Part shown: positions 2,149 to 25,915 of the stretch, in pieces
Position numbering within the stretch: the first letter of the stretch is position 1
Layout of the letters: every line of letters starts with the position of its first letter
Source: a virus
Virus record (IMG/VR): IMGVR_UViG_3300028025_000610
Coordinates: 1-27,586 of that record
Reading direction: 5' to 3' (one strand)
Length of the DNA: 27,586 nt
Notes under the pieces: model-generated
What the model saw: the letters and a program-made list of their open reading frames with translations, nothing else
The model's database searches: none
What the model was told of the DNA's origin: nothing
Position numbers and translations under genes: made by a program

Positions 2149-3807
2149 ATGGCAGATTTTTCAGTTACCCCTGTTGCACAAAACTTAAAACCACCCACAC
2201 CCATGACGTTGGGTGAAATGCTTAACTTTGCCAGTGGCGTACAACAATATAAACAAGCGCAACAATTGAACCCTTTGGCGGTTCAAAGAGCTGGCGCTGA
2301 ATTGCAAACACAGCAACAACAATTGCAAAATTTGCAACAAACTTACGAACAAGCGCAACAAATAAACCCTTTGGCAGTTCAAAAAGCAACGCAAGAAGCG
2401 CGAGTAGGTGAAATTGCATTAAGTGTTGATGAACAAAAAAACATTGAACGCACGAATATGCAAACGTTCTTTGCTGACCCAAATAATTTTCAAACCAATG
2501 GTCGAATTGATTTAGACAAGATTAATACTGCTGTTCCAAAAATTGCGCCTTTAACTGGCTCAGAATACATCAACAAATACACCACATTAGGAACAGCACA
2601 AACGCAAGCTATTGAGGCCAAACAAAAGCTAACCCAAGATCAACGAGCAATGATTGCTCAAAGATTTAGTATTTTGGGCAGAATGGGCGTTCAAGACAAA
2701 AATGCTTACATCAATGAAATGCAATTGATGAAAAAGGAAAACCCAAACAATCGTGATTTGCATGATTTGCTTGATGCCTACATGACCACATGGAATTCAG
2801 AGATGCAGTCTGGCCCTGATTTGCCCGAAAAAGCAATTGCAGGCGCGGCAACTTTAATGACTCCAGAACAACAACAAGCACAGTTTTCGACTAAAGCCGC
2901 AATGGATGCCCAAGGTCGAGTGTTGACAACAACCCAAAGCGTTACTGGCGGCAAACCAATTGTTGAAGTTAGTCTGCCTCAAGGTTTGCAACCCCAAACA
3001 CCACAAGGCACAAATGCACCGGGCGCGGCGGTTGGCGCGGCTGGTTCTGAAATTGCACCAAGCGTTAGATTGCCATACCCAGTTCGCAGGGCAGATCAGC
3101 CTTACACATTAATGCCAACTGAAGACAAAGACACAACAGCTGGATTTGATTACAGAAACAACTTAGTCAATGCCCAAAGTAATTTAGCTACAAAGCGCCG
3201 CAATGTTGAAGAAGTAATTAATCAGGCCAATAAAATTAGTGAATCGTTAGTCGTACCTAATTTTTTGGCTAAGTTTGGATTTGAAAAAGGTGGCGCACCA
3301 GAAAAAATGGAACGTGCTGTTCGTCAGTTTTTTGGAAGCGAACAATACGATTTACTTGCCAAAGACTTGGCAAAAATGGCAATTGACAATTCCCAAGCAA
3401 TGGGAAATGTTGGTGGAACTGTTGCTGGCTTGGATATGGCATCGGTTGCAAATGGCACGATCAAAGTCACGCCTGATGTGTTGGTAAAAATTGCCCGTAG
3501 GGTGCAAGCAGACCAAAGAAATCTTGATATGCAAGCAAGTGGCGCACAACAGTTTGGTCAAAAATTTGGCGACAATAACATGAAAGCATTTCAGCAAGCA
3601 TGGGGTGCAAATTCTAGAGATACCAAAATTTTTGAAGCCATGAATATTTTGGAAACAGAATCTGACCCTAAAAAAATGGAAAACAAATTTAAAGAATTAT
3701 TTCCATCTGAAAAAAAACGCAAAACAATTTTGAAGCAATACAAAAACTTAAAAAGTATGGCAGCTACTGGCTTGCCAGTAGAACCACTTGGCCCAGAGGA
3801 CTTTTAA
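2149..3807 (+). CDS. Ejection-type virion protein (P22 gp20-like by position)
   Basis: A 552-residue, Gln/Ala/Asn-rich protein with SD AAGGA before ATG 2149. Residues about 35-90 are coiled coil and contain a duplicated unit (AQQLNPLAVQ and AQQINPLAVQ). A helical region follows (90-230), then a Pro/Gly/Ala linker (about 270-310, ending near RLPYPVRRADQPYTLM) and a second helical domain with many lysines. There is no enzyme motif and no signal peptide. Size, Gln-rich helices and position between a gp7-like and a large gp16-like gene fit the internal ejection proteins of P22-type phages. The next ATG follows its TAA with no gap. Confidence 0.55.
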   Translation: MADFSVTPVAQNLKPPTPMTLGEMLNFASGVQQYKQAQQLNPLAVQRAGAELQTQQQQLQNLQQTYEQAQQINPLAVQKATQEARVGEIALSVDEQKNIERTNMQTFFADPNNFQTNGRIDLDKINTAVPKIAPLTGSEYINKYTTLGTAQTQAIEAKQKLTQDQRAMIAQRFSILGRMGVQDKNAYINEMQLMKKENPNNRDLHDLLDAYMTTWNSEMQSGPDLPEKAIAGAATLMTPEQQQAQFSTKAAMDAQGRVLTTTQSVTGGKPIVEVSLPQGLQPQTPQGTNAPGAAVGAAGSEIAPSVRLPYPVRRADQPYTLMPTEDKDTTAGFDYRNNLVNAQSNLATKRRNVEEVINQANKISESLVVPNFLAKFGFEKGGAPEKMERAVRQFFGSEQYDLLAKDLAKMAIDNSQAMGNVGGTVAGLDMASVANGTIKVTPDVLVKIARRVQADQRNLDMQASGAQQFGQKFGDNNMKAFQQAWGANSRDTKIFEAMNILETESDPKKMENKFKELFPSEKKRKTILKQYKNLKSMAATGLPVEPLGPEDF

Positions 3808-13189: not shown

Positions 13190-13906
13190 ATGAGAATCAA
13201 AAACTGGAACAAGTTTCAGCATTTCAAGGACAGGAAACCGCCTTGGGTCAAGCTGTATAGGGATTTGCTTGATGACATTGATTGGCATGAATTAGATGCC
13301 CAAGCCAGCAAAGTGCTTGTGATGTTATGGTTGATTGCAAGTGAAGAAGATGGAAACATCCCATCAACAAAAACACTTGCATTTCGTTTGAGAATGACAG
13401 AAAAGCAAACTATTGATTGCTTAAACAAGTTGTCTCATTGGCTGGAACAAGACGATATCAGCGTGATATCAGAACGATATCAAAGTGATGGTCTAGAGAC
13501 AGAGACAGAGACAAAGAAAGAGACAGAGAAGAAAGCCACTGTCGTGGCTACGCCTGTCGGCGTTTCACAATCTGTTTGGGATGACTTCAAAACCTTACGG
13601 AAAGCCAAGAAAGCACCAATTACCCAACGTGCCATTGATGGATTAATTGCGGAAGCAAACAAGGCAGGCTGGACATTGGAACAAGCATTGACTGAGTGCT
13701 GTGTGCGCGGTTGGCAGGCATTTAAAGCTGAATGGGTTGCTGACAAACCCAAGCTGGTCAACAGGTTTGATGTTGTGACCACCACAGTGCCATCACGAGT
13801 TGAACGTGACCCGGCATTGGTTAAGCTGGATGATGACAGCAAAAAGGTTGTGCCGCCAAGTGCTGAAATGCTTGAAAAATTCAAATTGCTGAGAGGGAGA
13901 AAATGA
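13190..13906 (+). CDS. Phage replication initiator-like protein
   Basis: A 238-residue protein from ATG 13190 (the TTG at 13178 lies in the terminator T-run and is rejected); no clear ribosome site is present. The N-terminal domain (about 1-95) begins MRIKNWNKFQHFKDRKPPWV and LYRDLLDDIDWHEL and is a winged-helix domain seen in phage O-type and DnaT-like replication proteins. A Glu/Thr/Lys linker (about 100-118) coincides with DNA repeats. The C-terminal helical domain (about 125-185, VWDDFKTLRKAKKAPITQRA, RGWQAFKAEWV) is familiar from the C-terminus of phage replication proteins. It probably binds an origin within its own gene and loads host helicase. Confidence 0.7.
   Translation: MRIKNWNKFQHFKDRKPPWVKLYRDLLDDIDWHELDAQASKVLVMLWLIASEEDGNIPSTKTLAFRLRMTEKQTIDCLNKLSHWLEQDDISVISERYQSDGLETETETKKETEKKATVVATPVGVSQSVWDDFKTLRKAKKAPITQRAIDGLIAEANKAGWTLEQALTECCVRGWQAFKAEWVADKPKLVNRFDVVTTTVPSRVERDPALVKLDDDSKKVVPPSAEMLEKFKLLRGRK
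13454..13482. repeat. Three GATATCA repeats, 11-bp phased; candidate replication origin iterons
   Basis: GATATCA occurs at 13454-13460, 13465-13471 and 13476-13482, a spacing of exactly 11 bp, about one helical turn. Because 11 is not a multiple of three the repeat is not produced by a protein repeat (residues are DISVISERYQS). They lie between the two domains of the replication gene, where lambda-type O genes carry ori iterons. Next to them are purine-rich AGAGAC repeats (13495-13512) and an AGA-rich tract to about 13535. Confidence 0.5.
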
Positions 13907-14727
13907 ATGAGCTGGCTTTATTCGCAGGCGCTGGTGGAGGAATACTTGGGGGAAAACTGCTTGGATGGAGAACAGTCTGTGCAGTCGAATGGGAAGCTTA
14001 CCCAGCTAGCGTATTGTGCGCCCGACAAAATGACGGAATTCTCCCGCCTTTCCCGATTTGGGATGATGTTCAAACCTTTGACGGAAAACCTTGGCGAGGA
14101 ATTGTTGATGTCGTATCTGGAGGATTTCCATGCCAAGACATCAGTGCCGCAGGAAAAGGCGCAGGAATTGATGGAGAACGATCAGGAATGTGGCGAGAAA
14201 TGGCGCGCATCATTTGTGAAGTACAACCCAGATTCGTGTTCGTGGAAAACTCACCAATGCTCACTTCTAGGGGACTTGGACGAGTTCTCGGAGACTTGGC
14301 CTCAATGGGGTTCGATGCGAAATGGGGAGTGCTGGGAGCAGCGGATGTTGGAGCAAATCATCAGAGGGACAGAATCTGGATTGTCGCCAAATGGCGTGGA
14401 CATCTTCCACACGCCCAACACAACAGGATTGGACGGTGGGAGCAACAGCAGACGAGCATTAAAGAAAAAATTGGAAAAATATCCAACTCCGAATACAGGA
14501 ATGTATCGAAATTTAAATTACAACAAGGAACTTTGCATCAAGAGAGCAGAAAAACATCAAACCGATTTAGCCATGATTTCGGTAATGAAATTTGGTGGTC
14601 AATTGAACCCGACGTGGGTAGAGTGGCTAATGGGGTGGCCGCTTCAGTGGACAGAATTAAAGCCATTGGAAATGGACAAGTCCCATTATGTGCAGCAACA
14701 GCATGGAGAATCCTAAGTGAATCATGA
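13903..14727 (+). CDS. DNA (cytosine-5)-methyltransferase, Dcm type
   Basis: A 274-residue protein starting on ATGA with the replication gene and sharing SD GGGAG. All main motifs are present: I (LFAGAGGGILGG, 6-17), IV (GGFPCQDIS with catalytic C77), VI (ENSP, 115-118), VIII (QRDRIWIVA, 154-162) and X (IGNGQVP, 255-261). The target-recognition part (about 165-235) is short and low-complexity. No restriction enzyme lies next to it, so it is an orphan enzyme that would protect phage DNA or act in regulation. Codon use is odd, with many GGA, CGA and AGA codons unlike the neighbours. The whole gene is read in a second frame as well. Confidence 0.85.
   Translation: MNELALFAGAGGGILGGKLLGWRTVCAVEWEAYPASVLCARQNDGILPPFPIWDDVQTFDGKPWRGIVDVVSGGFPCQDISAAGKGAGIDGERSGMWREMARIICEVQPRFVFVENSPMLTSRGLGRVLGDLASMGFDAKWGVLGAADVGANHQRDRIWIVAKWRGHLPHAQHNRIGRWEQQQTSIKEKIGKISNSEYRNVSKFKLQQGTLHQESRKTSNRFSHDFGNEIWWSIEPDVGRVANGVAASVDRIKAIGNGQVPLCAATAWRILSES
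13907..14716 (+). CDS. Second, fully overlapping long ORF in the Dcm gene (+1 frame)
   Basis: A 269-codon open frame from ATG 13907 (directly after the replication gene's TGA) to TAA 14716, inside the methyltransferase gene but in another frame. Its product has the features of a protein family I recognise from many phages near Dcm genes: MSWLYSQALVEEYLGENCLD, DKMTEFSRLSRFGMMFKPLT, SWKTHQCSLLGDLDEFSETW, HTPNTTG and YPTPNTG repeats, and LNPTWVEWLMGWPLQWTELK at the end. That N- and C-terminal signatures line up with methyltransferase motifs in the other frame suggests long-conserved dual coding. Function unknown; soluble, Trp-rich. Recognition is from memory, without a search. Confidence 0.6.
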   Translation: MSWLYSQALVEEYLGENCLDGEQSVQSNGKLTQLAYCAPDKMTEFSRLSRFGMMFKPLTENLGEELLMSYLEDFHAKTSVPQEKAQELMENDQECGEKWRASFVKYNPDSCSWKTHQCSLLGDLDEFSETWPQWGSMRNGECWEQRMLEQIIRGTESGLSPNGVDIFHTPNTTGLDGGSNSRRALKKKLEKYPTPNTGMYRNLNYNKELCIKRAEKHQTDLAMISVMKFGGQLNPTWVEWLMGWPLQWTELKPLEMDKSHYVQQQHGES

Positions 14728-16675: not shown

Positions 16676-16926
16676 TGGCAAGCTGCGCCAACTGTAAATT
16701 CTTTTTGAATGCCCAGATCATGGGCAGTTGCCGCCGCTATCCTCAAACGATAAACAGGCACATGAATGATTGGTGCGGAGAACATATTGCACCGCAACAA
16801 ACAAAGCCAGAAGAACCAGAAATGGTGAAATTGCCTGTTTACGACATTTTGACCGACACGGTGGTTGAACCGCCGTTGAGAAAAAAGCCCGGAAGAAAGC
16901 CAAAATATGATCAAACCCCTGCGTGA
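16675..16926 (+). CDS. Small cysteine-rich zinc-type protein
   Basis: An 83-residue protein from ATG 16675 (TGATG junction; the GTG one codon earlier is rejected). The first 40 residues have the pattern C-A-N-C-K-F-F ... G-S-C-R-R-Y-P ... W-C-G-E, a metal-binding cysteine domain common in small phage and bacterial proteins with 'CxxCxFF...CRR.P...WCGE'. The C-terminal part is linker-like (QQTKPEEPEMVKLPVYDIL) and ends in a basic RKKPGRKPKY, an AT-hook-like motif. It may bind DNA. It overlaps the GroES-like gene by 20 bp. Confidence 0.6.
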   Translation: MASCANCKFFLNAQIMGSCRRYPQTINRHMNDWCGEHIAPQQTKPEEPEMVKLPVYDILTDTVVEPPLRKKPGRKPKYDQTPA

Positions 16927-17164
16927 CCGTGTAGTAGTTCGCCCCAATGTTCGCAAGTTGTCCGACATTATCTATGTCAACAACAAAGAAGCATTCAACG
17001 AGGGAACAGTTGTTGCGGTTGGGCCGATGGTTGATCAGACTTGCGTGGGCGACTTCATCAAATACGGTAACGGGGATTATCTAAACTGGCCTGTCCACAA
17101 CATTGATGGGCAAGACTATCAGATCATTCAAGAAGCAGACATTTGTGCAGTAGTGGAGGCGTAA
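16907..17164 (+). CDS. GroES-like co-chaperonin
   Basis: An 85-residue protein with the Cpn10 pattern from end to end: MIKPLRDRVVVRPNVRKLSD at the start, EGTVVAVGPM in the middle, then VGDFIKYGNG and QIIQEADICAVVEA at the end. The mobile loop (about residues 17-30, normally with the GroEL-binding I-V-L type tripeptide) is here DIIYVNN, so it keeps hydrophobic residues. No chaperonin gene is nearby; like T4 gp31 it should work with host GroEL, probably to fold the capsid protein. It starts inside the zinc-type gene and shares one base with the next ATG. Confidence 0.85.
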   Translation: MIKPLRDRVVVRPNVRKLSDIIYVNNKEAFNEGTVVAVGPMVDQTCVGDFIKYGNGDYLNWPVHNIDGQDYQIIQEADICAVVEA

Positions 17165-18541: not shown

Positions 18542-18638
18542 AATAGAAGCTGGCAAGCCTGTTAAGCAGGCGGTTGCCATTGGCTATTCGGTCAAACGTG
18601 AAGCTGAGAAAGACAAAAAAGCAAAAGCCAAAAAGTGA
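18486..18638 (+). CDS. Small basic phage protein (MPL.KS..K..K.NI family)
   Basis: A 50-residue ORF from ATG 18486 inside the end of the coiled-coil gene: MPLIKSMTPKALKANIKAEI then EAGKPVKQAVAIGYSVKREA and a poly-lysine tail. The element NI-x-x-EI-x-AGKPxKQAVAI is a recognisable signature of short basic proteins in many phages and some plasmids, usually near terminase or DNA-metabolism genes. Its TGA overlaps the GTG start of the methyltransferase (GTGA). Function unknown, nucleic-acid binding likely. Confidence 0.6.
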   Translation: MPLIKSMTPKALKANIKAEIEAGKPVKQAVAIGYSVKREAEKDKKAKAKK

Positions 18639-19795
18639 AAATCACCCAAAAGAAAGTCACAGAACTAATCCCTTATGTAAAAAACAGCCGCACCCACAGC
18701 GATGAGCAAGTGGCACAAATAGCGGCAAGCATCAAGGAATTTGGCTGGACTAACCCAATACTGGTGGACGGAAGCAACGGCATTATTGCTGGGCATGGTC
18801 GTCTTATGGCGGCGCGTAAGCTGGGTTACAAAGAAGTACCCACCATAGAACTGGCAGACCTTACCGAAACCCAAAAGAAAGCCTACATCATTGCCGACAA
18901 TAGGCTGGCGTTAAACGCTGGTTGGGACAATGAAATGCTGACCATTGAGCTTAACGAATTGCTGGCAGATGGGTTTGCGTTGGAATTGCTGGGCTTTGAC
19001 CCCAAAGAATTAGACGCGTTGCTCGAGCCAGAAGTGGTCGAGGGTTTGACGGATGAGGACGCTGTTCCTGATGTGCCTGATGAGCCAAAAACCAAGCTGG
19101 GCGACATTTACCAATTAGGTAACCATAGACTAATGTGTAACGACAGCACCAGTGTGGATGCGGTACAAGAATTGTTAATGGGGCAACGTGCGGACATGGT
19201 ATTTACTGATCCGCCTTACAACGTTGCATTTAACGGTAGAAGCGGCAAGTTTGATGTAATAAAAAATGACGACTTGCCAGAAGATCAATTTGCAGAATTT
19301 ATAAAAGATTGGCTGCAAACCTTTGAAGCATTTAGACCAAACAGTTATTACATTTGCTGCAATTGGGCGTTTTATGGCATTTTGCAAACAGCATTAAAGC
19401 CAAAAGCCTGCATTGTTTGGGCAAAAAATGTGTTTGGTTTAGGCCGTGGGTACAGGCATCAGCATGAATTCATTATGTTTGATGGCCTAATTGACCCAAG
19501 CATTAAAAACGAATCTGATTTGTGGAACATTGCCAAAGACACCAAATATGTCCACCCTACACAAAAGCCAACAGCGTTAAGTGAACGTGCAATCAAAAAC
19601 AGCACCAAGGCAAACAACATTGTGTTGGATTATTTTGGGGGTAGCGGTAGCACATTGATTGCGTGTGAAAAGCAAAACCGCCATGCCCGACTGATGGAAC
19701 TAGACCCCAAGTATTGCGATGTGATAGTTAAACGGTGGGAAGACTTTACAGGCAAGAAGGCCGTACTGTTGACAGAAGTAACCGAAACTGTTTAA
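18635..19795 (+). CDS. ParB-like nuclease domain fused to DNA methyltransferase
   Basis: A 386-residue protein starting at GTG 18635. Residues 1 to about 110 are a ParB-N domain (LIPYVKNSRTHSDEQVAQIA, then IIAGHGRLMAARKLG with the GHGR box at 53-56). An acidic linker (about 131-155) leads to a beta-class amino-methyltransferase: motif IV DPPY at 192-195, then motif I FGGSGST at 334-340, with HPTQKP (307-312) between. It modifies adenine (N6) or cytosine (N4) in DNA. Such ParB-MTase fusions are common in phages upstream of terminases and may mark DNA for protection or packaging. No partner restriction enzyme is visible. Confidence 0.85.
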   Translation: MKITQKKVTELIPYVKNSRTHSDEQVAQIAASIKEFGWTNPILVDGSNGIIAGHGRLMAARKLGYKEVPTIELADLTETQKKAYIIADNRLALNAGWDNEMLTIELNELLADGFALELLGFDPKELDALLEPEVVEGLTDEDAVPDVPDEPKTKLGDIYQLGNHRLMCNDSTSVDAVQELLMGQRADMVFTDPPYNVAFNGRSGKFDVIKNDDLPEDQFAEFIKDWLQTFEAFRPNSYYICCNWAFYGILQTALKPKACIVWAKNVFGLGRGYRHQHEFIMFDGLIDPSIKNESDLWNIAKDTKYVHPTQKPTALSERAIKNSTKANNIVLDYFGGSGSTLIACEKQNRHARLMELDPKYCDVIVKRWEDFTGKKAVLLTEVTETV

Positions 19796-19822: not shown

Positions 19823-20173
19823 ATGCCACTAATTCCACAAGAGCCGCACGAACCAACGGCAGAATCCCGCAAACTGGTTGAATCCAGCAGTGGGTTAGGC
19901 TTGCCGCATGAATCCATTGCAGTGCTGGTGGGCATAGATGACAAGACTTTGCGTAAGTATTACCGCCACGAACTGGACATGGGCAAGGCCAAAGCCAACG
20001 GGCAGATTGCTAAGACTTTGTATAGCAAGGCGGTTGCCGGCGACACAACCAGTTTAATTTGGTGGACAAAAAGCCAAATGCGGTGGTCTGAAACTGTACG
20101 CAATGAAATGACTGGCGCTGATGGCAAAGAATTAACAGGCATCCAAGTTACTTTTGTAAAGCCAAATGAGTGA
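19823..20173 (+). CDS. Small terminase subunit
   Basis: A 116-residue protein just upstream of the large terminase, overlapping it by 8 bp. It has a helix-turn-helix (LPHESIAVLVGIDDKTLRKY) followed by HELDMGKAKANGQIAKTLYS and GDTTSLIWWTKSQMRWSET, a pattern seen in TerS-like proteins that begin with a DNA-binding domain and continue with an oligomerisation helix. Role: recognise the packaging start site and stimulate the large subunit. There is no clear ribosome site before ATG 19823 (only AAAAG). Confidence 0.75.
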   Translation: MPLIPQEPHEPTAESRKLVESSSGLGLPHESIAVLVGIDDKTLRKYYRHELDMGKAKANGQIAKTLYSKAVAGDTTSLIWWTKSQMRWSETVRNEMTGADGKELTGIQVTFVKPNE

Positions 20174-21440
20174 TGTCGACCGCGCTATTGCCAATGCTGA
20201 GTTCCCAATTAAGCTACAAGGCTTGTTTAAGCCATCCCGCTACAAGGTAGCCTACGGCGGCAGGGGTGGCGCTAAGTCATGGGGCATTGCTAGGGCGTTA
20301 CTGATTAAGGGCGCTAAAGAACCGTTACGCATACTTTGTGCGCGGGAATTCCAAACCAGCATCAGGGATTCGGTACATAAGCTGTTATGTGACCAAATTG
20401 AAGGTTTAGGATTGCTGGGTTTTTATGAAATAACTCAAAATACCATTAGAGGCAAGAACGGTACAGAGTTTGCATTTGCCGGCTTAAAAAACAACATTGC
20501 CAACATCAAATCTTATGAGGGCGTAGACATTTGCTGGGTAGAAGAAGCCCAGACCACAAGCCGATTAAGCTGGAATGTGTTGATACCAACCATTCGTAAG
20601 CAGGGCAGTGAGATATGGATTTCGTTCAATCCTGAGTTAGAAACTGACGAAACCTACCAGCGGTTTGTGGTGAACCCGCCTGATGACTGCATCCAAATCA
20701 AAATCAACTGGTCGGACAACCCTTGGTTTCCTGAAACTTTAAAGCTGGAAAAGGATGCACTGAAGAACCGCGACCTTGAAGCCTATAACCAAGTCTGGGA
20801 GGGCTTATGCCGCCAATCAGTCGATGGGGCTATCTTTGCCAAGGAACTTCAGCAGGCAGAGATTGAGGGCAGGCTAACCCGTGTGGCCTATGACGCTACA
20901 AAGCCCGTCCACGCAATCTTTGACCTTGGCTGGTCTGACAGCACATCAATCTGGTTTTTGCAGTTTGTGGGCATGGAAACCCGCCTGATTCGGTACATTG
21001 AGGACAGCCAAAAGACCATGACGCATTACTTGGCGACTATGCAGACGTTTGGCTATGTGTACGACACTGTTTGGTTACCCCATGACGCTGAGAACCAGAC
21101 ACTGGCAGCGGCTGGGCGGTCAATTGATGACATCGTTAGGGCGGCAGGCTACAAGACGCGAATTCTGCCCAAAGTGCCAATCCTTGACTCAATCAACGCA
21201 GCCAGAACAATATTCCCAAGCTGCTGGTTTGATAGGGAACACGCCGCAGAGGGCATTAACTGCTTGCGCCACTACCGATATGAGGTTGACCCAGACACAG
21301 GTCAATTCAGCCGCAATCCATTACACGACCACTATTCGCACGGGGCAGACGCATTCCGCTACATTGCCCTGATGATTCAAGACACACCAAAGCGCAAGCC
21401 CAAGGCACAGGTTGCAATGGCTGGCGGTTGGATGGGATAA
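20166..21440 (+). CDS. Terminase large subunit
   Basis: A 424-residue protein with packaging ATPase motifs: Walker A GGRGGAKS (31-38), Walker B VDICWVEEA (120-128, catalytic Glu), then the SFNPELETD segment (153-161). The nuclease half has FDLGWSDST (252-260, D253 and D258) and the last acidic D394 in SHGADAFRY. The length and motif order fit the PBSX-type terminase_3 family. It cuts concatemers and drives DNA into the P22-type procapsid through the portal encoded next. Overlap with the small subunit suggests coupled synthesis. Confidence 0.9.
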   Translation: MSDVDRAIANAEFPIKLQGLFKPSRYKVAYGGRGGAKSWGIARALLIKGAKEPLRILCAREFQTSIRDSVHKLLCDQIEGLGLLGFYEITQNTIRGKNGTEFAFAGLKNNIANIKSYEGVDICWVEEAQTTSRLSWNVLIPTIRKQGSEIWISFNPELETDETYQRFVVNPPDDCIQIKINWSDNPWFPETLKLEKDALKNRDLEAYNQVWEGLCRQSVDGAIFAKELQQAEIEGRLTRVAYDATKPVHAIFDLGWSDSTSIWFLQFVGMETRLIRYIEDSQKTMTHYLATMQTFGYVYDTVWLPHDAENQTLAAAGRSIDDIVRAAGYKTRILPKVPILDSINAARTIFPSCWFDREHAAEGINCLRHYRYEVDPDTGQFSRNPLHDHYSHGADAFRYIALMIQDTPKRKPKAQVAMAGGWMG

Positions 21441-21458
21441 TTCCCAAAAGGGGCAAAT

Positions 21459-23663
21459 ATGGCATACCAAGACGCATCAGGCAAAGACGGAAGAATCAAC
21501 AAAGCCATAGAGTTTTGGCGGTTGGTCAATGACGCAGACTCCACCAATCGCGCCGAAGCATTGCAAGACATTAAGTTTGCTGCTGGCGACCAATGGCCTG
21601 TTGAGATTCAGAACAGCAGAAACGTGGAAGCACGACCCTGCCTAACCATCAACAAGATTGATGCCTATGTGCGACAGGTAACCAACCAGCAGCGGATGCA
21701 GCGCCCACGCATCAAGGTGCATCCTGTGAATAACTTGGCTGATTACAAGATTGCCCAAGTGATTGAGGGCATGACCCGCCACATTGAAGTCAATTCAAAC
21801 GCTGACACTGCTTACGACACAGCCTTTGACTACGCTGTGCGGATGGGTTGGGGCTACTGGCGCATTAATACTCGCTATGTCAGCGAAGATTCATTCGACC
21901 AAGAAATCTACATTGACACGATTGACAACCCGTTTACTGTGTACTTTGATCCCAATTCAATATTGCCTGATGGGTCAGACGCTGAACGTTGCCTGATCAC
22001 CACAGTGTTGGACAAAAAGGTTTTTAAGGATTACTACCCTAATGCTGATGACGGTGCTAACTTCACCCAGCGGTCGACAGGGGATGACACTGCAAGCTGG
22101 ATCACTAAGGAAGACATTCGCATTGCTGAATTCTTTTATGTTGAACGTGAACGGGCCAAGCTGTATCTGCTGAGTGATGGCACACGCCAATTTGCTGACT
22201 CTGACCGATTCTTTGAACGGGTTGAGGCCGCTGGCTTGACCGTAGTTGATGAACGCGACAGCTTCCGCAAGGCAGTTAAATGGGTCAAAATGACCGCGCT
22301 AGAAATCTTGGAAGAAAAGACATGGGCTGGCAAGTACATCCCTGTTGTTCCTTGCTACGGCGCACAGGTTATCGTGGACGATAAACGCAAAAAATACGGT
22401 CTGGTCAGGTTTGCTAAAGACCCACAGCGTATGTACAACTTCTGGCGCACCAGCATGACCGAATCGGTTGCCCTTGCACCAAAGGCCAAATGGTTGTTGG
22501 CAGAGGGTCAGGACGAGGGACACGAAAACGAATGGGCGCTGGCTAACATTAAATCTAGCCCCGTCCTACGGTACAAGCAGAAAGACATTGAGGGCGTACC
22601 AGCCCCAGTGCCGACCAGACTGCAACCAGAACCACCGCCTGCTGGCATCATGGAAGCTGCGGCAGCTATTTCCTCAGACTTACAGATGGTGTTGGGAATA
22701 CTTGATCCAAATCAATTGCCTAGCGGAAATATTTCAGGCAAAGCCTTGCAAGGTCAGCAAAACCAAACTGATCTGAGCAATTTCCATTTCTACGACAACA
22801 TGACCCGATCAATCAGGCATACAGGCAAAATCCTGTTGGACTTGATTCCTAAGATATACGACACCCAGCGAGTGATGCGGATCATTGGTTCGGATGGTCA
22901 GCCAGACATGACCGAAATCAACCAAAAGAATGAGGTTGGCGAAGTTCTGAATGATGTGACTGTGGGTGAATATGATGTGGTGATGGACACAGGCCCCGGC
23001 TTCCAATCCAAGCGCCAGCAAGCAGTTGAGGCCATGATGCCTTTGCTGACAGGCAACGAACAATTGTTCAACATTGCGGGTGATTTGGTGTTTAGGAACA
23101 TGGACTTCCCCGGTGCGGACGTTATCGCCGACCGCCTTGCCGCCATGAACCCAATGGCAAATATTGATGAGAAATCAGATATACCGCCTGAAATTCAAAT
23201 GCGTTTGGCCCAATCCCAGCAACAATTGCAAGAAATGCAACAGCAATTGCAAGCCGCTATGTTGGAAATTAACAACCGTGGTCAGGTTGCCCAAATCCGC
23301 GAAGAGGGCGCAACCAAGCGCAAACTCATGGACGTTACTGCACGGGCGCACAACACAGAAACCATTAACGAAGCCAAAGTCAATCAAACCAATCTCAATG
23401 CAATCACTAGCCAGAACAAGACTGAAGTTGATGCGTTGGTCAAAATGCTTATTGCAAGAATGCCAACTGACCAATTGATGATGGAAATTGAACGACTGAA
23501 CGCTGAACAACAACAGCTTGCAATGGCTGCTTCACAAGATATTTCGCACGAAGCAAACCCGTTCATTAATGCACAACAAATGCAACAACCGATGCAACAG
23601 CAACCAATGCAAGAACCGATGCAGCCGCCTATGCAACAGTCGTTTGAGCCGCCAATGCAATGA
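21459..23663 (+). CDS. P22-type portal protein
   Basis: A 734-residue protein with clear P22 gp1-type features: N-terminus with FWRLVNDADSTNRAEALQDI and KFAAGDQWP, PCLTINKIDAYVRQVTNQQR, the YDTAFDYAVRMGWGYWRINT stretch, and FTVYFDPNSILPDGSDAERC. The C-terminal part has a long helix and Gln-rich coiled coil (about 580-690, matching the long barrel in P22) and ends in repeats of M-Q-Q-P (about 705-734; DNA at about 23577-23660 is correspondingly repetitive). It forms the 12-mer DNA gate at one capsid vertex. It follows terL with a ribosome site. Confidence 0.9.
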   Translation: MAYQDASGKDGRINKAIEFWRLVNDADSTNRAEALQDIKFAAGDQWPVEIQNSRNVEARPCLTINKIDAYVRQVTNQQRMQRPRIKVHPVNNLADYKIAQVIEGMTRHIEVNSNADTAYDTAFDYAVRMGWGYWRINTRYVSEDSFDQEIYIDTIDNPFTVYFDPNSILPDGSDAERCLITTVLDKKVFKDYYPNADDGANFTQRSTGDDTASWITKEDIRIAEFFYVERERAKLYLLSDGTRQFADSDRFFERVEAAGLTVVDERDSFRKAVKWVKMTALEILEEKTWAGKYIPVVPCYGAQVIVDDKRKKYGLVRFAKDPQRMYNFWRTSMTESVALAPKAKWLLAEGQDEGHENEWALANIKSSPVLRYKQKDIEGVPAPVPTRLQPEPPPAGIMEAAAAISSDLQMVLGILDPNQLPSGNISGKALQGQQNQTDLSNFHFYDNMTRSIRHTGKILLDLIPKIYDTQRVMRIIGSDGQPDMTEINQKNEVGEVLNDVTVGEYDVVMDTGPGFQSKRQQAVEAMMPLLTGNEQLFNIAGDLVFRNMDFPGADVIADRLAAMNPMANIDEKSDIPPEIQMRLAQSQQQLQEMQQQLQAAMLEINNRGQVAQIREEGATKRKLMDVTARAHNTETINEAKVNQTNLNAITSQNKTEVDALVKMLIARMPTDQLMMEIERLNAEQQQLAMAASQDISHEANPFINAQQMQQPMQQQPMQEPMQPPMQQSFEPPMQ

Positions 23664-23722
23664 TTGACAGTAAAATGATTTCGTGGTAAAAACCACAAAA
23701 CCTTACCAGTTGGGTCAACTGG
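23664..23722 (+). promoter_or_regulatory. Promoter and two hairpins in front of the scaffold gene
   Basis: TTGACA (23664-23669), 17 bases, TAAAAA (23687-23692). The -10 lies in a GTGGT-AAAA-ACCAC palindrome (23683-23696), and CCAGTTG-GGT-CAACTGG (23706-23722) follows in the leader before the SD. No T-run, so these are not terminators. The arrangement could boost scaffold and coat output over portal. Confidence 0.45.
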
Positions 23723-23744
23723 GTGAATTCTTTGAGGAAACTCA

Positions 23745-24644
23745 ATGTCAGAAGTATCAGAACGACTTGCCGCCAATGTGGTGACAAGTGAAAATTTAGC
23801 TGAATTTAATGCCAAGAGAATGGGTTTAGCTGATCCAACGCCAAGCGAGGCTGCCAAACAGGCAGAGCCGCAAGAGGTTGATCAAGGACAGAGTGAACCA
23901 ACTGAGGCAGAAAATGATGCGACAGCAACAGAGGATAAAAAACAAAATCCTAAGCTGGAAAGACGGTTTTCAGAGATAACCAAGCAGCGCGAAGCCGCAC
24001 GGGAAGAAGCCCGAAAGGAACGCGAAGCAAGGGAAAATCTGGAAGCAAAGGTAAGGGACTTGGAGGCCAAGTTTCAGCCCAAAGCTGATCCAATAGCCGA
24101 AACAGAACCTTTGCCAGAGCAGTTCAGCGATATGTATGAATACGCCAAGGCGTTAACAGACTATCGAGTGGAACAGCGATTGCAGGAAGAAAAGCAAAAG
24201 GATGCACAGGCCAAAGCCGCCGCCGAACACGCCAAGTTAATAGACGCATGGGGTCAACGGGTAAAGGCAGCCAAAGCTGAAATGCCAGACTTTGATGACA
24301 TGGTTAATTCCACAGACGTTACGGTAAGTAACGAAGTGCGGGATGCAATCTTTGAATCAGATGTTGGGCCACGCATCCTGTATCACCTTGCTGAAAATCC
24401 TGACTTTGCTGTAAAACTGCAAGGCATGACCTTGACCGCCGCCTTGAGAGCAATTGGGAGGTTGGAAGCGCAGTACGAAAAGACTGATGCAAAGCCTGTT
24501 GTTGGGAAAAGTAAAGCACCCGCGCCGATCAATCCAATCAGATCAGCAGCTAACGGGCGTGATGTAAACCTGACCAGCGATGGTCAATTTCATGGTTCAT
24601 ATCAGGCTTGGAGAGCAGCACGATTGGCTGGAAAGATTCGCTAA
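23745..24644 (+). CDS. Scaffolding protein (P22 gp8-like)
   Basis: A 299-residue protein with SD GAGGA. It is acidic and disordered at first (AKQAEPQEVDQGQSEPTEAE), then strongly coiled-coil (ITKQREAAREEARKEREARE), then a mixed helical region (FDDMVNSTDVTVSNEVRDAI) and a basic C-terminus (YQAWRAARLAGKIR) that matches the coat-binding helix-turn of P22-type scaffolds. It lies between portal and coat genes, the P22 order. It templates procapsid assembly and leaves before packaging. Length is near P22 gp8 (303). Confidence 0.8.
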   Translation: MSEVSERLAANVVTSENLAEFNAKRMGLADPTPSEAAKQAEPQEVDQGQSEPTEAENDATATEDKKQNPKLERRFSEITKQREAAREEARKEREARENLEAKVRDLEAKFQPKADPIAETEPLPEQFSDMYEYAKALTDYRVEQRLQEEKQKDAQAKAAAEHAKLIDAWGQRVKAAKAEMPDFDDMVNSTDVTVSNEVRDAIFESDVGPRILYHLAENPDFAVKLQGMTLTAALRAIGRLEAQYEKTDAKPVVGKSKAPAPINPIRSAANGRDVNLTSDGQFHGSYQAWRAARLAGKIR

Positions 24645-24667
24645 ACCCATTCTTTTAAGGAAACAAA

Positions 24668-25915
24668 ATGAGCAACAATCTGCTTACCATCAGCATGATC
24701 ACCAACGAAGCGTTGATGGTCTTGGAAAACGAATTGACTTTCTCTAGCGAAGTCGAAAGAAACTATGACGATCAATTTGCCGTTACTGGCGCAAAGATCG
24801 GTGCTACTTTGAACGTCCGCAAACCCGGTCGTTTCATCGGCACAACTGGCCCTGCTTTGAACGTTGAAGATTTCAACGAAACATCAGTGCCTGTCACTTT
24901 GTCCACACAGTTCCACGTTGATACCCAGTTCACTAGCCAAGACTTGGCTTTGTCTTTGGATATGTTCAGCGACCGCGTGTTGAAGCCTGCTGTTGCAGCT
25001 ATTGCCAACAAGATCGACTTTGACGGTCTGACAATGGCTAAAAACAACACCGCCAACATTGTTGGTACTGCTGGCACACCGCCCACAGGTTTGATCACTT
25101 ACCTGACCGCTGGCGCATATCTGGACAGCGAGGGCGCACCCCGTGACGGTCGCCGTTCATGTATCGTTGAGCCGTTCACAGGCGCAACCATTGTTGACAG
25201 CTTAAAAGGTTTGTTTGTTCCCTCAGACAAAATTGCAAGCCAGTACACCAAAGGCATGATGGGTCGTGACTCCGCAGGCATGAACTGGAAGATGGATCAG
25301 AACGTTGTGGCACAGACATTTGGTTCTTATGCGACCGCTACACTGTCTTGCAACACCACCACTGGCACAGGTTTCATTTCAACTGGCTGGGCATCAACTT
25401 CCACCATTGCATTGACCGCTGCCACAGCTACTGCTGGCTTGAAACAAGGTGATGTGATTCAGATTGCAGGCATCTTTGCAGTCAACCCACAAAACCGTCA
25501 AGCCTACGGCAGCAACAAACTGCGTAACTTTGTTGTGACTGCACCTGTGACCGTGGCAACTTCTGGCACAACTTCTGTGACCGTTAGCCCTGCCATCATC
25601 ACTGGTGGTCAGTTCCAGAACGTTAGCTTGGCTTCCACCAGCGCATCTGCTGTTGTGACTCCATTCAACAACACTGGCACTGTGTCTCCACAGAATATCG
25701 TGATGCACAAAAATGCTTTCACTTTGGCCTGTGCTGACTTGGAATTGCCTGATGGCGTTCACTTTGCTGGTCGCGCAAGCGATAAGGAATTGGGTCTGTC
25801 AATGCGTGTGGTTCGTCAATACACAATCAACAACGATTCAATCCCGACTCGCGTTGATGTGCTATATGGCTGGGCCCCGCTGTACCCAGAACTTGCCTGC
25901 CGCGTTGCAGCCTAA
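24668..25915 (+). CDS. Major capsid protein (P22 coat fold)
   Basis: A 415-residue protein with strong SD AAGGA. It opens MSNNLLTISMITNEALMVLE and N-E-L-T-F, continues with GATLNVRKPGRFIG, then SQDLALSLDMFSDRVLKPAV, as in the P22 gene-5 coat family (HK97 fold). The middle (about 220-330) is Thr/Ser/Ala-rich, where P22 has its inserted I-domain. It ends RVDVLYGWAPLYPELACRVA, also typical. It forms the icosahedral shell with scaffold and portal; the GroES-like protein may help it fold. Codon use is biased to GGC/CGT, as for a highly expressed gene. Confidence 0.9.
   Translation: MSNNLLTISMITNEALMVLENELTFSSEVERNYDDQFAVTGAKIGATLNVRKPGRFIGTTGPALNVEDFNETSVPVTLSTQFHVDTQFTSQDLALSLDMFSDRVLKPAVAAIANKIDFDGLTMAKNNTANIVGTAGTPPTGLITYLTAGAYLDSEGAPRDGRRSCIVEPFTGATIVDSLKGLFVPSDKIASQYTKGMMGRDSAGMNWKMDQNVVAQTFGSYATATLSCNTTTGTGFISTGWASTSTIALTAATATAGLKQGDVIQIAGIFAVNPQNRQAYGSNKLRNFVVTAPVTVATSGTTSVTVSPAIITGGQFQNVSLASTSASAVVTPFNNTGTVSPQNIVMHKNAFTLACADLELPDGVHFAGRASDKELGLSMRVVRQYTINNDSIPTRVDVLYGWAPLYPELACRVAA

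Follow-up and report, generated by a model that had tools for sequence, protein, structure and literature searches.

A reading frame nested within a phage C5-cytosine methyltransferase gene very probably encodes the second part of the same enzyme. In the window, meaning the whole 27,586-nt stretch of viral DNA that was analysed, a catalytic polypeptide read in frame 0 (alpha, 274 aa, 13903..14727, +) and a polypeptide read in the +1 frame (beta, 269 aa, 13907..14716, +) share an overlap of ~807 nt. Comparison of this locus with its homologs argues strongly for a single C5-cytosine DNA methyltransferase made as two polypeptides from nested frames and acting as a heterodimer. Alpha would supply the catalytic domain, comprising motifs I-VIII and X, and beta would supply the target-recognition units and motif IX, its translation beginning at a separate ATG, 4 nt 3' of the alpha ATG, after a ribosome site common to both. 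Produced from one message and in one place, the two chains are expected to assemble into an active enzyme, which may modify the phage genome, probably as a protection against host restriction. A broader reading is offered tentatively: such pairs may form a class that is widespread among phages, bacteria and archaea. Specificity would then reside in exchangeable cassettes that only the +1 frame encodes, swapping them would change the specificity while frame 0 is passive there, and the N-terminal half of beta would have been overprinted on the catalytic motifs.

Organization of the two chains

Alpha matches PF00145 (E=2.7e-34, profile positions 4-227 of 324) and PHROG 363 (E=1.1e-68), and it scores 86.5 bits against the Dcm model TIGR00675, below the curated cut-off of 100.65. 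According to the PF00145 match and an alignment to M.HhaI, the SAM-binding motif I and the catalytic PCQ (IV) and ENx (VI) motifs are all located in alpha. The catalytic Cys codon within motif IV (GGFPCQDIS), read from the sequence, lies at 14131..14133 (+), and motif VIII (HQRDRIWIVA), read from the translation, at 14359..14388 (+); both were aligned to M.HhaI. In the usual PF00145 order, motif VIII is followed by the target-recognition domain (TRD), motif IX and motif X, all in one polypeptide. Alpha departs from this order, as the TRD and motif IX lie in the +1 frame: it shows no motif IX and carries motifs I-VIII and X, the latter being KAIGNGQVPLCAATAWRI at 14659..14712 (+) in frame 0. 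The corresponding stretch is filled in the +1 frame by the C-terminal half of beta, which contains two target-recognition units, FHTPNTTGLDGGSNSRRALKKKLEK (14405..14479, +) and YPTPNTGMYRNLNYNKELCIKRAEKHQTDLAMISVMKFG (14480..14596, +), followed by a motif IX equivalent, LNPTWVEWLMGWPLQWT (14603..14653, +).

Both genes are preceded by one Shine-Dalgarno-like AGGGAG (13894..13899, +), which is situated 3 nt 5' of the alpha ATG and 7 nt 5' of the beta ATG; the beta stop ends 11 nt upstream of the alpha stop. The ORF list and the sequence bear out the coordinates of both frames and the single ribosome site given in an earlier note on this DNA. The window itself represents a P22-like tailed phage, with a terminase, a P22-type portal and a P22-type coat protein at 20166-25915 (+). 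It also encodes a second DNA methyltransferase (18635-19795, +), in which a ParB N-terminal domain is fused to an N6/N4 methylase, and a GroES-like co-chaperonin (16907-17164, +; Cpn10 E=6.6e-09).

Coding constraint and probable initiation in the +1 frame

Two separate IMG/VR searches, one with the +1 protein and one with the frame-0 protein, supplied the homologs, and because 82 of the 119 distinct genes were chosen by frame-0 similarity alone, most of the set is unbiased towards an open +1 frame. Each of the 111 intact homologs is free of internal stops in the +1 frame, whereas shuffling synonymous codons gene by gene predicts ~5.6 per gene (0.58, 2.9, 0.93 and 1.22 for alpha residues 1-64, 65-165, 166-232 and 233-270, respectively); the third frame (+2), used as a control, contains about 17-19 stops per gene. 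The +1 frame is thus open far beyond chance. The homologs are related rather than independent, which overstates count-based probabilities, though the selection test used disjoint pairs.

Constraint is also evident at synonymous sites. Among genes compared at 65-75% amino acid identity, conserved residues with fourfold-degenerate codons keep the same third base in 72% of cases, versus 42% in flanking genes, and in pairs from the same contigs this identity reaches 74-78% in each of four methyltransferase regions, against 42% in the flanks. The earlier note had suggested that both reading frames are conserved and kept by dual selection, a view to be refuted by frequent +1 stops in homologs; that test has now been run, and the suggestion is upheld by the zero count among 111 homologs together with the strong synonymous-site constraint.

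Substitutions were further sorted as synonymous or nonsynonymous in each frame over 48 disjoint pairs. Across the whole gene, dNN/dNS is 0.43 for the +1 frame, with a +2 control of 1.16. Flanking genes provide a baseline, their unused +1 frame having a ratio of 0.73 (0.61-0.85), presumably owing to unequal constraint at codon positions 1 and 2, so that the whole-gene value is not convincing by itself; dSN/dSS was likewise discounted as evidence, its control being 0.43 rather than 1. By region, the +1 ratio is 0.72 for alpha residues 1-64, which is indistinguishable from the baseline, 0.56 for residues 65-165, somewhat lower, and 0.32 (CI 0.25-0.39) and 0.28 for residues 166-232 and 233-274, both clearly lower. 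Amino acid constraint on the first ~60-64 residues of beta, considered on the basis of dNN/dNS, was consequently dropped, since 0.72 equals the unused-frame baseline. The frame-0 ratio (dNN/dSN) shows a complementary distribution, being 0.11 and 0.17 over motifs I-VIII, close to neutral (0.87) in residues 166-232, and 0.23 in residues 233-274. Between motifs VIII and X, where frame 0 evolves almost neutrally and +1 is constrained, the coding role thus falls mainly to the +1 frame.

In a few bacterial homologs (L187, L191, L192 and L204/L331), alpha is broken by one stop and beta is still open. The stop directly follows motif VIII in L191 and L192 and lies near residue 40 in L187, a pattern that fits near-neutrality of frame 0 at that place for some of these genes, or else decay or sequencing error; these few cases count as evidence against the two-chain model.

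The start of beta is more tightly conserved, in both its ATG and its spacing from the ribosome site, than the frame-0 start. The beta ATG requires that Asn2 of alpha be encoded by AAT, which is the case in 113 of 116 genes, compared with 582 of 1351 (43%) other Asn codons. The first codon of alpha varies among ATG, TTG, GTG and a non-start codon, alpha then starting upstream; L088 and L092, which have such a non-start codon, keep the ribosome site 5' of the beta ATG. The median gap from ribosome site to start in homologs is 8 nt for beta and 4 nt for alpha. From these features, we infer that beta is translated from its own ATG. In L089, L091, L099 and similar homologs, the beta start lies another 27 nt upstream and reads MSWLIS or MTWLIS; the usual beginning of the beta N-terminus (MSWLFS/MSWLYS) is retained despite the shift relative to alpha.

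Motif X does not always reside in the same chain. Alpha ends right after motif VIII in L231 and L235 and lacks motif X in L031 and L074; in these four homologs, beta continues into motif X (IGNGQVPLCAATAWRVL and similar), to be compared with the alpha-borne motif X of the window, and the pair keeps every motif. This re-assortment between alpha and beta is otherwise hard to explain, and the two chains are therefore likely to be one enzyme. It also bears on programmed frameshifting, by which a single polypeptide would be made, with motifs I-VIII read in frame 0 and a slip to +1 for the recognition units and motif IX (and motif X where it lies in +1). One slip would suffice to produce a canonical enzyme in L231 and L235, where alpha stops after motif VIII and the TRD and motifs IX and X are in +1, but two would be required in the window, where motif X returns to frame 0. 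Moreover, the +1 frame upstream of motif VIII, for which a slip has no need, is open and constrained at third bases. Because the beta ATG is near-invariant and the ribosome-site spacing is tuned to it, separate initiation of beta is the more likely route, and frameshifting is considered improbable. A side observation concerns L229:2996-3984, in which the frames swap roles near position 3250 in an indel-like manner; the ORF that begins as beta goes on as alpha, and beta proceeds in another frame.

Probable recognition units and motif IX in beta

The C-terminal half of beta is built of units that begin with PTP, whose kinds, numbers and orders differ among homologs, followed by LNPxWVEWLMGWPxGWTDL. 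The variable recognition region of C5-methyltransferases is located between motifs VIII and IX (PMC3404938). A single-frame relative, the methylase of a Mycobacterium abscessus prophage (L260; L263 is an identical protein), displays motifs I-VIII, LLPTP units, RLAAPFSEWMQGWPLGWV and motif X (IIGNGVVPQQ) in one polypeptide, and the PTP units and LNPxWVEWLMGWP of beta sit at the place of its TRD and motif IX. The RLAAPFSEWMQGWPLGWV stretch aligns, by eye, with motif IX of M.HhaI (RKLTPRECARVMGYP). When the profiles of beta and of the C-terminal part of the single-frame family are compared, hhalign gives a probability of 96.9% (E=2e-10), carried mainly by the PTP and motif IX stretches. PHROG 1008 provides a further connection, matching residues 209-412 of the monomer (E=9.5e-63), the window beta (E=9e-23), and the annotated nested betas of phage K1ind2 (E=1e-64) and phage Bloom (E=6e-72). 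The C-terminal half of beta thus probably comprises TRD units and a motif IX like those of this enzyme type, and because of this match, both frames are most likely subunits of one methyltransferase.

Structure prediction is informative mainly outside the recognition region. The AlphaFold model of the L260/L263 monomer is confident for the catalytic core and the motif IX-X stretch and unconfident for the PTP/target-recognition region, and Foldseek searches with it return M.HhaI and M.HaeIII as the best PDB matches, mostly over the core only. Modelled alone, beta reaches a mean pLDDT of 55 and is confident only at the motif IX helix, which would fit a subunit that folds on its partner. A profile search of beta against PDB sequences gave chance-level matches only, and Pfam searches of beta chains, including those bearing motif X, gave nothing significant. 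Among other phage methylases, L274, L275, L276 and L278 each have, in a single gene, PTP units in frame 0 as well as in +1, and are possibly intermediates between the nested and single-frame forms.

Beta has also been considered as an independent overprinted protein whose function lies outside the methyltransferase, for instance in anti-defence. The absence of any recognised domain in its N-terminal half, which lies over the catalytic motifs, and of any matching Pfam family would agree with such a role, but the match between its C-terminal half and the TRD-motif IX part of the single-frame relative, the shifting of motif X between alpha and beta, and the occurrence of beta with alpha throughout make it very unlikely. 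On the same grounds of TRD and motif IX content, the second, separate family that the earlier note envisaged as having arisen over the methyltransferase gives way to a subunit of the same enzyme. The accompanying idea of overprinting holds up in part: it is plausible for the N-terminal half of beta, whose first ~60 residues are absent in many distant relatives and show a dNN/dNS no lower than that of an unused frame, and is abandoned for the rest. In distant relatives beta often starts ~60 residues later, which suggests that its N-terminal part may have been added afterwards by overprinting.

Consistent with beta as the recognition subunit, its units travel as +1-frame protein. A unit common to L168 (Comamonadaceae) and L249 (a Paenibacillus polymyxa plasmid) is 64% identical in the +1 frame and 19% in frame 0, with 24, 16 and 45 changes at beta codon positions 1, 2 and 3, respectively, and this difference between frames underlies the interpretation; the alpha cores of the two loci share 37% identity over 168 residues. 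That the +1 ORF is an untranslated by-product of conserved methyltransferase codons and composition is scarcely credible, for although other frames of conserved genes look conserved, as the flanking value of 0.73 illustrates, the absence of stops in 111 homologs, the third-base identity far above that of same-contig flanks, the C-terminal dNN/dNS of 0.28-0.32 with frame 0 near neutral in the recognition region, and the 64% versus 19% identity of the L168/L249 unit all contradict it.

Relation to known enzymes and distribution

C5-methyltransferases composed of two polypeptides are already known, namely M.AquI and M.EcoHK31I. M.AquI (CYCGRG) is divided into chains with motifs I-VIII and IX-X (PMC3404938). 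The homologs L231 and L235 resemble it in being split in the stretch from motif VIII to motif IX, and motif X is also held by beta in L031 and L074; unlike M.AquI, the window has motif X in alpha rather than beta, and its genes overlap over their full length. For M.EcoHK31I (YGGCCR), PMC3404938, citing Lee et al. 1995, describes a large chain with motifs I-VIII and X and a small chain with motif IX, and assigns the predicted TRD to the large subunit. The window agrees with this enzyme in motif content, its alpha likewise having I-VIII and X and its beta IX. The small gene of M.EcoHK31I is reportedly nested inside the large one in a different frame, with chain lengths said to be 176 versus 309 aa, and the window would share this nesting. 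It differs in that beta covers nearly all of alpha (269 vs 274 aa) and that the recognition region is constrained in beta and near neutral in alpha.

Several phage loci provide additional comparisons. The K1ind2 pair ORF29/ORF28 (methylase/'Mte8-like', GU196280) and the Paenibacillus phage Bloom pair gp56/gp57 (MH454077) resemble the window in having a +1 CDS within a methylase and a second CDS that belongs to PHROG 1008, but their alphas are distant and beta starts inside alpha, not at its start. Both nested genes in these phages have already been called by annotators. Gp17 of the Mycobacterium abscessus prophage prophi104-2 (MW584162) has the same order of motifs I-VIII, PTP units, IX and X, with every part in one frame, unlike the window. 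In ShiLan, an out-of-frame HNH endonuclease within mycobacteriophage methylases has been described (PMC11855218); here, too, a phage methylase gene conceals a further protein in a different frame, but this protein is an inserted homing endonuclease restricted to its insert rather than an enzyme subunit. The present alpha-beta family was not described in any paper returned by literature searches for phage methyltransferases that are nested or overprinted. As far as the literature searched shows, the new elements are the near-full-length gene overlap, the comparative evidence for both frames, and the evidence that the recognition domain lies in beta.

To our knowledge, few long dual-coding genes with both frames on the same strand are on record in prokaryotes, and they are disputed. 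The window case offers ~807 nt of overlap, more than 100 homologs, and flanking genes as an internal control, together with a plausible purpose for the overlap, namely that a single DNA segment yields both subunits of an enzyme. It may also serve as a test bed for how two frames divide constraint region by region.

The alpha-beta pair is present in phages of many hosts, in several bacterial phyla and in Poseidoniaceae archaeal bins, and beta matches occur in 14 of 369 genomes sampled from one bacterial class. Among 321 non-redundant beta segments, 315 are in the +1 frame relative to an overlapping alpha; one (L301, from the single-frame-protein search) is in alpha's own frame, and five are C-terminal segments with no overlapping alpha match, three of which are beta extending past alpha. 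A free-standing beta family lacking alpha was rejected, as only weak or run-on fragments were present among these segments. The +1 frame is usually unannotated, and the recognition half is therefore missing from most annotations; target prediction from frame 0 would use the wrong protein. On a Roseicitreum plasmid (L262:2375-3124), the label 'DNA methyltransferase' is placed on the PTP/motif IX frame instead of the catalytic frame. In Mycobacterium phage Jinglebell (L257:2392-3097), alpha is divided over two frames, and the genes annotated in this stretch, on the opposite strand, are probably miscalled.
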